A stretch of 64,000 nucleotides of DNA, from contig JAGFNW010000013.1 in assembly GCA_017592665.1 (NCBI GenBank), positions 137,054 through 201,053 on the forward strand, written 5' to 3'. The stretch is from Streptosporangiaceae bacterium NEAU-GS5 (GTDB lineage Bacteria > Actinomycetota > Actinomycetes > Streptosporangiales > Streptosporangiaceae). The notes under the pieces were generated by a model, which saw nothing but the letters and a program-made list of their open reading frames with translations, did no database searches and was not told where the DNA came from. Made by a program: the position numbers and the translations under genes. Below, piece after piece: positions 35,588 through 38,173 of the stretch (positions are counted from its first letter, which is position 1; every line of letters starts with the position of its first letter).

Positions 35588-35689
35588 TCGATTCCGTCTG
35601 CGTCCCCGCGGACACGCGACGTGGCGGCGCTTCGGAGATACCGTGTGCGTGTCACCCGATGGGGCGGTCTCGCGGGGAGGTGGCACGGC

Positions 35690-36457
35690 ATGAGCATGAG
35701 CATCACGCACGGGATGGCGCACGGCACGCCCTGCTGGGTGGACCTCGGCAGCCCGGATCTCGGCGCCGCGAGCGACTTCTACGGCGCCCTGTTCGGATGG
35801 CACTTCGAGGAGACCGAAGAGGGCTATCTGCAGGCCCGGCTCGGCGGTGCGCCGGTCGCCGGGATCGGCGCGGTGGGGCCGGACGACCTGCCCTGGTGGA
35901 CGACGTATATCGCGGTCGACGACGCGCACGCCAGCGTGTCGGCGGCGGTGGCGGCCGGTGGCGAGCTGGTCACCGGGCCACAGTGGGTGGGAGAGCAGGG
36001 GATCAGCGCCTATTTGAAGGACCCGGCCGGCGCGTCGCTGGCGATCTGGCAGGCCGAGAGCTTCGCCGGATCGCAGGTGCTGGGCCGGCCGGGCGCCTCC
36101 TGCTGGTATGAGCTCGCGGTCCGCGACCCGCTGCGGGCGCAGCGGTTCTACCAGGCCGTCTTCGGGTGGGACGGGGTGACCCGGTCGGTCGCCGACGCCA
36201 CCAGCGCCTACACCGACTTCGGCCGGCACGGCGAGACGGTCGCCGGCATGATCCGGATGAACGAGATGTGGCCGGACGAGATCCCCGCCCACTGGATGGT
36301 CTACTTCGCGGTCGACGACTGCGACGCGGCCGCCTCCGACGTGACGTCTCTCGGCGGCGTGGTCTCCATCGCCCCCTTCGACATCGCCCCCGGCCGCGTC
36401 TCCGTGGTCAACGACCCCCACGGCGCCGTCTTCTCCCTCATCCGCCTCTCCGCGTGA
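35690..36457 (+). CDS. VOC-family protein with two glyoxalase-like domains
   Basis: This 255-aa protein consists of two vicinal-oxygen-chelate domains (about 10-125 and 135-255), each with the paired beta-alpha-beta-beta-beta pattern (CWVDLGSPDLGAASDFYGALFGW; CWYELAVRDPLRAQRFYQAVFGW). Such tandem proteins include antibiotic-binding and ring-cleaving enzymes; the substrate cannot be told. ATG 35690 has a GGGGAGG ribosome site; an upstream in-frame ATG at 35621 is less likely. Its stop codon lies inside the first unit of the mirrored repeat (36454). Confidence 0.85.
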   Translation: MSMSITHGMAHGTPCWVDLGSPDLGAASDFYGALFGWHFEETEEGYLQARLGGAPVAGIGAVGPDDLPWWTTYIAVDDAHASVSAAVAAGGELVTGPQWVGEQGISAYLKDPAGASLAIWQAESFAGSQVLGRPGASCWYELAVRDPLRAQRFYQAVFGWDGVTRSVADATSAYTDFGRHGETVAGMIRMNEMWPDEIPAHWMVYFAVDDCDAAASDVTSLGGVVSIAPFDIAPGRVSVVNDPHGAVFSLIRLSA

Positions 36458-36651
36458 TCTTGCACGTTCTCCCGGCGGCCTGCTCACGGCTTTCGTGATC
36501 TTGCACTTTATCCCGAACGCCAGGTCAGCGCGTCGATGATCATGCAATGCGCGTGCATTGCATGATCACCGAAGCCGCTGCCTGCGGAAAGGGAGAACAC
36601 GCAAGATCACCAACGCGCGGACCCGCGCGTTGGGAGAACCTGCAAGATCAC
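36454..36651. repeat. 198-bp nested palindrome of 41-bp-phased units
   Basis: Three head-to-tail units start at 36454 (GTGATCTTGCACGTTCTCCC), 36495 (GTGATCTTGCACTTTATCCC) and 36536 (ATGATCATGCAA), exactly 41 bp apart. Three inverted units end at 36569, 36610 (GGGAGAACACGCAAGATCAC) and 36651 (GGGAGAACCTGCAAGATCAC), again 41 bp apart. All pairs share one centre at 36552.5, where a perfect 14-bp inverted repeat (36537-36550 / 36555-36568) has a 4-nt loop. The element fills the gap between two convergent genes. It resembles a REP/BIME-like or MITE-like element, or a compound bidirectional terminator. No recombinase is nearby. Confidence 0.85.
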
Positions 36652-36663
36652 GCGCCCCTGGGG

Positions 36664-37989
36664 TTAGCTGGCCCAGTCGAGGAGGGGGCGGGTGTTGCTC
36701 GGGTGGCGGAGCTTGGAGAGGGATTCCTTCTCCAGCTGGCGGATGCGCTCGCGGGTCAGGCCGAGGTGCTTGCCGATCTCGTCGAGCGTGTGCGGCTTGC
36801 CGTCGGCGAGGCCGAAGCGGAGCGACATGATCTTGGCCTCGCGCGGCGAGAGGTTGCCCAGCACGCCGCGGAGCTGCTCGGCCAGCAGCTGCCGGTCGAC
36901 CACCTCGGACGCCTCGGGCGAGTCGACGTCCTCGATGAGGTCGCCGATGCGGGTCTCGCCGTCTTCGCCGATGGTGGAGTCGAGGCTGATCGGCTGCCGG
37001 CTGGTGCGCAGCAGCTCCTCGATCTGGTCGGGCGTCTTGTCCAGCTCGACCGCCAGCTCCTCGGCCGTGGGCTCGCGGCCCAGCCTCTGGTGCATGTCGC
37101 GCTCGACGCGGGACAGCTTCGACAGCATTTCCAGCACGTGGACGGGCAGCCGGATCGTGCGCGCCGAGTCGGCGAACCCGCGCTGGATGGCCTGCCGGAT
37201 CCACCACATGGCGTAGGTGGAGAACTTGAAGCCCTTGGTGTAGTCGAACTTCTCCACGGCCCTTATGAGACCGAGGTTGCCCTCCTGCACCACGTCCAGC
37301 AGCGACATGCCGCGGTCGGTGTACTTCTTGGCGACCGATACGACCAGCCGGAGGTTGGCCTCCAGCATGTGGTCCTTGGCCCGGCGGCCGTCCTCGATGA
37401 CCCATTCGAGGTCGTCGCGGTAGCCCGGCGGCAGATGCTCGCCGTTCTCCAGGGCGGTCTCCAGCTTGTACTCGGCGTACAGACCGGCCTCGATCCGGCG
37501 GGCCAGCTCCACCTCCTGCGCGGCGGTGAGCAGTGTGCGCCGGCCGATCGACTTGAGGTAGGTGTGGACGGAGTCGCCCATCACCGTCCCGGTGTCGTCG
37601 AGGTCGAGGGCTCCGGCCTCGTCCTCCAGCTCTTCGGCCGCCTGCTCGGTCCACTCCTCGTCGACGACGTGGGCGGCCTCGTCAGCGGCTCCGGCCGGAG
37701 ACTTGACAGGGTCTTTTACACTGGGCTTCGCAGTCGTATTCGTGGTGGTCGTCCTGGGCTTTCTGGTCTTGCGGGGTTTTGCGGCAGGCTTGTCGGCGGC
37801 CAGGCTCACCCCCGCGTCGGTGAGGTCGCGAAGGATCGAGCGGCCTTCCGCGGGGCTGATTCCGGACGCGGCGAACGCCTCGCGGAGTTCCGCGAGGGAA
37901 AGGTTGCCCTGTGCACGCCCTCGGTCGAGGAGCAGATCGAGGGTGGTCGGGGCCGTCGTCTGAGTGGTTGCCGCGGCGGCTTTCGGCAT
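36664..37989 (-). CDS. RpoD/SigA-family RNA polymerase sigma factor
   Basis: This 441-aa sigma factor has a region 1.1-like start (about 18-65), a Lys/Thr-rich linker, region 1.2 (VHTYLKSIGRRTLLTAAQE), region 2 with DVVQEGNLGLIRAVEKFDY and STYAMWWIRQAI, region 3 and region 4.2 (LTRERIRQLEKESLSKLRHP). The C-terminus (NTRPLLDWAS) and ADSARTIRLP differ from the principal HrdB/SigA (usually RDYLD and ADQARTIRIP), so this is probably a group 2 paralogue. ATG 37989 has GGAGGAGGTG upstream; a start at 38010 is less likely. The target promoters are unknown. Confidence 0.88.
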   Translation of the reverse strand: MPKAAAATTQTTAPTTLDLLLDRGRAQGNLSLAELREAFAASGISPAEGRSILRDLTDAGVSLAADKPAAKPRKTRKPRTTTTNTTAKPSVKDPVKSPAGAADEAAHVVDEEWTEQAAEELEDEAGALDLDDTGTVMGDSVHTYLKSIGRRTLLTAAQEVELARRIEAGLYAEYKLETALENGEHLPPGYRDDLEWVIEDGRRAKDHMLEANLRLVVSVAKKYTDRGMSLLDVVQEGNLGLIRAVEKFDYTKGFKFSTYAMWWIRQAIQRGFADSARTIRLPVHVLEMLSKLSRVERDMHQRLGREPTAEELAVELDKTPDQIEELLRTSRQPISLDSTIGEDGETRIGDLIEDVDSPEASEVVDRQLLAEQLRGVLGNLSPREAKIMSLRFGLADGKPHTLDEIGKHLGLTRERIRQLEKESLSKLRHPSNTRPLLDWAS

Positions 37990-38173
37990 GAGGACACCTC
38001 CTCCGTACACGGAGTAGTCGTTTGGCGTGGTTTAGGTCACGGTGGTGCTGGCCGGGCGTTTCTCGGCGCACCAGTATCAATAACACCGACGCGCCGAGTT
38101 TGTTCCCGGCGGGTAACCTCGATGGGTGGCAGCCGATCGCCGTGGCCGGTCGATCGCCGTGACCCGTCGATGT

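Follow-up and report, generated by a model that had tools for sequence, protein, structure and literature searches.

A phased, mirrored repeat array at gene 3' ends in Streptosporangiaceae and its possible role in transcription termination

Several described systems resemble parts of the element reported here. The Sal-box arrays of eukaryotic Pol I offer a comparison for termination of the roadblock type, and the ends of Mu and Tn7 each carry about three binding sites, the two ends being inverted. Intrinsic terminators form another point of comparison; according to a section heading in PMC8355165, they can do without A/U trails. Repetitive extragenic palindromes (REPs) have been reported (PMC2817692, PMC3733652) to bind proteins and to assist termination, and termination by a protein roadblock is described for LacI in E. 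coli (PMC4132739) and for Rap1 and Reb1 in yeast (PMC10310618). Here, we analyzed a stretch of 64,000 nucleotides (the window) from Streptosporangiaceae bacterium NEAU-GS5, in which a mirrored array of short repeats lies between a VOC/glyoxalase-like gene and a convergent sigma-70 factor gene. The array belongs to a real, repeated, conserved and lineage-specific 3'-end element: a family of defined geometry, anchored at gene 3' ends, in which a short core sequence is better conserved than the spacers and the spacers do not pair between arms. We found no description of such arrays among the top matches in the open-access literature searched, where the core sequence occurs in seven papers, all unrelated by title.

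A repeated array anchored at gene 3' ends

The array occupies positions 36454-36651 of the window and, by direct reading, consists of six copies of an 11-bp sequence, hereafter the head, with a 41-bp phase and a mirror centre at 36552.5. Forward-strand heads start at 36454, 36495 and 36536, and reverse-strand heads end at 36569, 36610 and 36651, every step being 41 bp. The central inverted repeat is a perfect one of 14 bp (36537-36550 and 36555-36568) with a loop of 4 nt, and the outer 20-bp units agree at 18-19 of 20 positions; on all of this, direct reading agrees with the initial annotation. The mutual complementarity of the whole arms is only 72%.

The suspicion that the array is one of many proved correct. 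The head (GTGATCTTGCA) has 122 exact copies in the 9.96-Mb genome (60 and 62 on the two strands), and the 20-bp unit, with a gap of 0-3 nt permitted after the head, has 12 exact matches; the reversed controls gave none in either case. Within the window, TGATCTTGCA occurs 10 times with at most one mismatch, against 1.26 expected and a maximum of 5 in 100 shuffles. The sites studied in NEAU-GS5 cover 100 of the 122 places, in 46 loci. They are mainly intergenic, with a few isolated heads within predicted genes. A single isolated head is found in each of four loci (L212, L223, L236, L237), and short pairs in a few others (L208, L217, L218); the remaining ones are arrays or half-arrays, some of them degenerate. 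What is conserved is the entire 41-bp unit, GTGATC(T/A)TGCA-n5-TCCC-n4-CGC(A/T)G(G/C)TCA...; the 20-bp unit first noted corresponds to its first half. Across 81 units there are two conserved blocks: the head, with consensus GTGATC(T/A)TGCA, followed by TCCC (positions 17-20), and CGC(A/T)G(G/C)TCA (positions 25-33), referred to as block B. By eye, T-type heads predominate in outer positions and A-type heads in innermost ones. When successive same-strand heads 12-90 bp apart are counted, 81 of the 97 spacings in NEAU-GS5 are exactly 41 bp and 88 are within 1 bp of it. Of its 20 mirrored arrays with two or more heads in each arm, 12 have three heads on each side.

Arrays of similar architecture are present in Sphaerimonospora and some Microbispora, with a period of 53 bp in 252 of 312 spacings (304 within 1 bp). 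These figures hold among the matches listed, which for these genera were listed for an exact two-head pattern and are therefore enriched for intact arrays. The 41-bp phase is sharp in the NEAU-GS5 loci studied and is lineage-specific. The 53-bp unit shares its head with the 41-bp unit, and its second block is reversed in strand sense, TGA(C/G)C(T/A)GC. Of the 76 mirrored arrays of relatives in which each arm has two or more heads, 48 have three on each side, again among the matches listed. Thirteen loci from other organisms (L053, L071, L077, L081, L086, L087, L090, L104, L117, L127, L136, L140, L143) were excluded from the spacing, head-identity and gene-end counts.

The distribution is patchy. 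Among 120 relatives, Sphaerimonospora thailandensis (G034) has 96 heads and G073, from another family of the order, has 304, the next genomes having 14-16; the two-head pattern matches 2 of 394 genomes of the class, NEAU-GS5 being one of them. Four of 15 Microbispora genomes have 157 (H11081), 53, 50 and 33 exact heads, and the remaining eleven have 1-5 each. When an array was used as query together with its flanking sequence, these four head-rich genomes gave 65, 51, 50 and 49 matches, G465 gave 7 and the other ten gave 3-5. The 20 copies examined in G073 (L148-L176, L279-L286) are near-perfect palindromes built around the same head (for example ccttggccGTGATCTTGCAGAAATTTCAAG-loop), and the differences from one copy to another are compensatory. 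A gene 3' end adjoins one or both sides in 17 of 18, and these palindromes are a simpler relative of the array. The metagenome-assembled genome (MAG) BWSM_131 has 64 heads. Its head-like arrays, GTGATCTTGCACTTCTGCAGA (L077, L086, L117, L136 and others), differ from one another in period, which is nearly constant inside some of them. Viral contigs gave three matches to the two-head pattern, none of which, judged by eye, belongs to the family. An IMG/VR viral contig (L144, 98-236) contains several GTGATCTTG palindromes in a different layout.

The position of the arrays relative to genes was determined with genes called in all species by a codon model trained on the window. Outer heads lie between -15 and +60 nt from a gene 3' end at 146 of 230 array ends, compared with 13-14% of random intergenic points, and equally near a gene 5' end at 16 of 230, compared with 19-21%. 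At least one 3'-anchored end is present in 116 of 144 arrays or half-arrays. At 40 ends (12 in NEAU-GS5 and 28 elsewhere) the offset is exactly -4, which places a TGA stop inside GTGATC. The strand entering the array is often C-rich, as in TAACCCCCC...CGC|GTGATC, and array borders are palindromic (CG..CG). The placement between convergent genes emphasized in the initial annotation is true of the window array, but the family is not confined to such pairs. Because dozens of similar arrays usually follow stop codons, the element is probably an unusual multi-part end-of-gene signal. In one locus (L214, 2884-2976) a half-array occupies the gap that separates the stop of one gene from a shikimate kinase gene (2379-2864); the latter has an in-frame ATG inside the innermost head.

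The window array and its neighbours comprise the following features.

35621-36457, forward strand: VOC/glyoxalase-like gene (open reading frame; Pfam Glyoxalase on 35690-36457)
36454-36494, forward strand: unit 1, outermost left, with head GTGATCTTGCA at 36454-36464, a TCTCCC block and block B CTGCTCA
36495-36535, forward strand: unit 2 of the left arm, with head at 36495-36505 and block B CAGGTCA
36536-36546, forward strand: innermost left head, A-type, ATGATCATGCA
36537-36568, no strand: central perfect palindrome, arms of 14 bp and loop of 4 nt
36559-36569, reverse strand: innermost right head, A-type, GTGATCATGCA
36570-36610, reverse strand: unit 2 of the right arm, with head at 36600-36610 (GTGATCTTGCG)
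36611-36651, reverse strand: unit 1, outermost right, with head at 36641-36651 and an additional short palindrome, CCAACGCGCG/CGCGCGTTGG, in the spacer
36652-36663, no strand: outer G/C flank of 12 bp between array and rpoD stop, TAACCCC.. in the rpoD sense
36664-38010, reverse strand: convergent sigma-70 factor gene, rpoD/hrdB-like (open reading frame; TAA stop at 36664-36666)

The TGA stop of the VOC gene (36455-36457) falls within the first head; read by eye, it is at the same codon as in the relative L288 and one codon before that of L301. Sigma70 regions 1.2, 2, 3 and 4 exceed the Pfam cut-off on 36664-37989. Rfam gave no match at or above gathering in 36200-36900, the sole match, snoTBR12, scoring 22.4 bits (E 0.036) where gathering is 77. 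Elsewhere in the window, a reverse-strand gene (57-1967) has a plain C/G hairpin, TAACCCCCCCGCGGGGGGGG, 3' of its stop, and the C-rich entry tract of the arrays is similar.

Conservation, pairing and exchange with hairpins

In 11 orthologous array pairs, each counted both ways, heads are identical in 1159 of 1208 cells (96%, with 79 more gapped), as measured on alignments partly anchored by the heads themselves, and spacers in 2319 of 3121 (74%, with 510 more gapped). If a fold-back were the functional structure, the variable spacer positions should match between arms, and no such match was seen. In NEAU-GS5 the arm-to-arm spacer match is 0.425 versus 0.499 on shuffling in the inner tier and 0.485 versus 0.504 in the second tier; in the 53-bp set, among the matches listed, it is 0.485 versus 0.467 (p 0.09) and 0.518 versus 0.501 (p 0.10). 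The covariation that we had expected at first is thus absent from the spacers, and pairing is not kept across the whole element: heads and their immediate neighbours pair, spacers do not.

Furthermore, half-arrays without a partner are kept. This is the case for L045 and L099 (heads 33/33), and for L210 of NEAU-GS5 and L068 of S. mesophila. For 12 half or partial arrays, no partner half was found within 18-20 kb inward with a unit profile at 11 bits, a search that a degenerate partner would escape. In two loci a pair of half-arrays surrounds one gene, an ABC ATPase gene in L210 (2966-3898) and an amidohydrolase gene in L254 (2995-4506), and another gene-flanking pair (L121, 872-2330, and L066, 2986-3607) is orthologous across two genera. 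Centre lengths cluster at 23-24, 30, 34-35 and 41 bp. The compound fold-back proposed initially therefore survives in part. The window array does have a central hairpin, and the folding energy of its 204-nt strand is -127.8 kcal/mol (z = -11.7), but the element is not simply one fold-back, because the spacers are unpaired between arms and solo half-arrays, unable to fold back, are conserved across species and genera. Together, head conservation, unpaired spacers, kept half-arrays and clustered centres favour recognition as double-stranded DNA.

Comparison of a small number of individual sites partly demonstrates that arrays and ordinary hairpins replace each other there. At the VOC-rpoD site, S. 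mesophila and S. thailandensis have an ordinary hairpin (-45.7 and -37.6 kcal/mol, respectively) and no array; both species carry an array on the opposite side of rpoD. In 24 other relatives, the 400 nt around the rpoD stop contain no head. At Microbispora site 1, aligned in 14 of the 15 genomes (G461 was unalignable), four genomes have an array and ten have none. G460 retains the native TGA, followed by a C-rich tract, and H11081, G218 and M. rosea stop within a head, as read by eye. Five of the ten array-less genomes have a hairpin beyond composition (reached by 0-3 of 40 dinucleotide shuffles) and, since only these five do, the exchange with terminators is not uniform. The role of bidirectional terminator offered in the initial annotation fits both the position at gene 3' ends and these replacements, at rpoD in Sphaerimonospora and in half of the array-less genomes at the Microbispora site.

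At site 2, common to Microbispora and Sphaerimonospora and with hairpins judged by eye only, five of the 15 Microbispora genomes have an array, two (the deep-branching G458 and G461) a single head pair, and eight neither. Two site-2 alleles, L377 (G465) and L379 (M. rosea), carry substituted heads, for example GTGATCGTGCG and GTGATCTTGGA, in a largely intact array layout, as if decaying or shifted in specificity. At a third site NEAU-GS5 has an 18-bp head palindrome, S. thailandensis a single pair and H11081 a 4+3 array. Because allelic forms vary in this way at the compared sites, arrays can expand or contract in place around a terminator-like palindrome. In single-locus trees G460 groups with G465 and, at site 2, G167 groups with G218, although recombination could mislead here.

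Terminator, mobile repeat or chromosomal landmark

The reading that we favour, tentatively and from sequence comparison, is that of a modular 3'-end element that halts transcription, probably with a candidate DNA-binding protein bound in helical phase; that is, a protein-assisted terminator, possibly bidirectional, with the intrinsic hairpin as a close rival. We infer the protein, its binding and the termination activity of the array as follows. The module would be a polar half-array of three heads, made up of two full 41-bp units and a third head, whose outer end would usually be set at a gene stop codon; two modules facing each other would then give the mirrored array seen between genes. Both the heads and the second block of each unit would be recognized as double-stranded DNA by the putative protein, whose sites would be separated by about four helical turns (41 bp) or five (53 bp). 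Once bound, the array may halt RNA polymerase coming from either gene, through a roadblock or assisted termination, and would replace the ordinary terminator at its site.

Several observations weigh against this. The array-poor Microbispora (11 of 15 genomes, 1-5 heads) manage without arrays, a 3'-anchored end is missing from 28 of 144 arrays (in a few cases because no gene was called there), and periods in MAG BWSM_131 vary between arrays from 33 to 56 bp. The constant period elsewhere could partly reflect inheritance from founder arrays. At site 1, four of the ten array-less hairpins are no better than composition (10-21 of 40 shuffles), and G238 has almost no intergenic DNA there. In the 53-bp set, head-adjacent bases of one arm do match those of the other (p <=0.03); in NEAU-GS5 this match is weak in the inner tier (p 0.04) and absent from the second. 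The G073 palindromes with compensatory differences (304 heads, 20 examined) point to hairpins. Finally, the local hairpin in each tested array allele suffices for an intrinsic terminator: the best 46-nt window is at -28.0 kcal/mol in the window array and at -26.9 to -28.8 in four Microbispora alleles, and was reached by 0 of 40 dinucleotide shuffles in each.

The latter points are at the same time the case for an intrinsic terminator, in which the central palindrome and paired heads would fold the transcript, additional units would strengthen the hairpin, and no protein would be needed. This alternative follows close behind because the array centre is a local hairpin; we consider it a serious, if somewhat doubtful, possibility. 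It gains from the low folding energy of the window array (z = -11.7), from the hairpins that beat all 40 shuffles in all five tested alleles, and from the G073 palindromes with their adjoining gene 3' ends. It is also consistent with the single head pairs of G458 and G461 at site 2, with pairing that reaches a few bases beside the heads, and with the position just after the stop codon (146 of 230 outer ends, against the 13-14% of the control). The mirrored form is, moreover, the commonest, accounting for 95 of 154 groupings, a count that retained several of the 13 loci from other organisms and includes a few overlapping ones. However, spacers are unpaired, the inner units of NEAU-GS5 matching below chance; the conserved solo half-arrays have no opposite arm; block B is conserved although unpaired; and loops in an RNA do not require a period held within 1 bp.

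Next, the array may be a non-autonomous mobile repeat, either like REPs and bacterial interspersed mosaic elements (BIMEs) or like miniature inverted-repeat transposable elements, served by a transposase in trans and preferring gene 3' ends. We regard this as improbable. With 122 heads, the family is dispersed, extragenic and of high copy number, as expected of REP/BIME, and it is patchy among close species. Some arrays surround a gene like cargo (L210, L254, L121/L066). Gain of arrays in some form happens, because their presence varies between close species and a half-array differs at one site: in that intergenic region NEAU-GS5 has a half-array (L245, 3012-3104), S. mesophila has one in the opposite orientation and S. 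thailandensis has none, with no clean junction (L137, 313-419; L078, 2510-2620). On the other side, the whole intergenic region differs at Microbispora sites 1 and 2 and is not cleanly interrupted. In about 100 kb aligned between the two Sphaerimonospora species, all three alignable arrays are shared, one by a single flank only, and heads are better conserved than spacers, both of which speak against mobility. Direct repeats at the borders (3, 4, 5 and 8 bp, under two border definitions) are not clearly above shuffled pairings in 20 NEAU-GS5 and 76 other mirrored arrays.

A transposase was sought as Y1_Tnp (PF01797), the only family searched. It has matches in 7 of 12 genomes, namely S. thailandensis and S. 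mesophila (one match each), M. rosea, M. bryophytorum and three genomes with 0 heads, and none in NEAU-GS5, H11081 (157 heads), G073 (304 heads), MAG G125 or G022. The BIME-like spread by a remote RAYT transposase proposed initially is thus not supported, because NEAU-GS5 has no Y1 transposase and there is no target duplication. Nor do the arrays match the alternating palindromic 20-40 bp unit of REP/BIME, being direct repeats within an arm and mirrored only at the centre. As to cargo, the genes inside the split arrays L210 and L254 were typed, and neither is a transposase gene.

Lastly, a landmark for chromosome organization or replication, with sites for nucleoid proteins that merely tolerate gene 3' ends, would account for phased, oriented and dispersed sites by the dozen with a similar head number, but registration with stop codons is not expected of it and the arrays are scarce in most sister species, which makes it very improbable.

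A bolder form of the terminator with a bound protein, which we consider rather unlikely as a whole, would be a dedicated bacterial protein-roadblock terminator: helically phased, polar three-site modules at stop codons, mirrored between genes, which evolved from a single palindromic terminator, took over at dozens of loci and later disappeared altogether from sister species along with the cognate protein. That arrays were lost together with a trans factor is conjecture. For finding such a factor, a ready comparative set exists in the close pair G460/G465 and in the 15 Microbispora genomes, four head-rich and eleven poor.

Comparison with known systems

If protein-assisted termination is correct, a stop-codon repeat with strict phase and drifting spacers would be a natural case of bacterial termination by DNA-bound proteins, and it would account, with no transposase involved, for a class of intergenic repeats that are lineage-specific. 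Even as an intrinsic terminator, the repeated, modular and phased design would be unusual. The arrays share with the ends of Mu and Tn7 the triple sites and the inverted arrangement but, unlike these, they are anchored to stop codons, their border duplications are at chance level, and no transposase was seen between array halves, where the genes of L210 and L254 were those typed.

The arrays resemble REP, BIME and REPIN sequences associated with RAYT (PMC2817692, PMC3733652) in being dispersed, extragenic, clustered inverted repeats with a patchy distribution between species, and differ from them as polar head-to-tail triplets of fixed period in a genome without a Y1 transposase. The REP tag GTAG occurs in an outer head variant of Microbispora, GTGATCTTGTAG, and not in the NEAU-GS5 consensus, no search having been aimed at GTAG/CGTC. 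Like the intrinsic terminators and post-stop hairpin clusters in the cited passages of PMC8355165, the arrays lie tens of nucleotides from the stop, combine several elements and have a local hairpin, here at the centre; unlike them, they are a fixed sequence repeated genome-wide, with unpaired spacers and direct-repeat half-arrays that are kept. In the roadblock systems a DNA-bound protein halts the polymerase, and orientation can matter in the case of Rap1 (PMC10310618). Our likening of the arrays to them is a proposal: in contrast to LacI, Rap1 and Reb1, the element described here is a dispersed array in a bacterium, with a putative protein.
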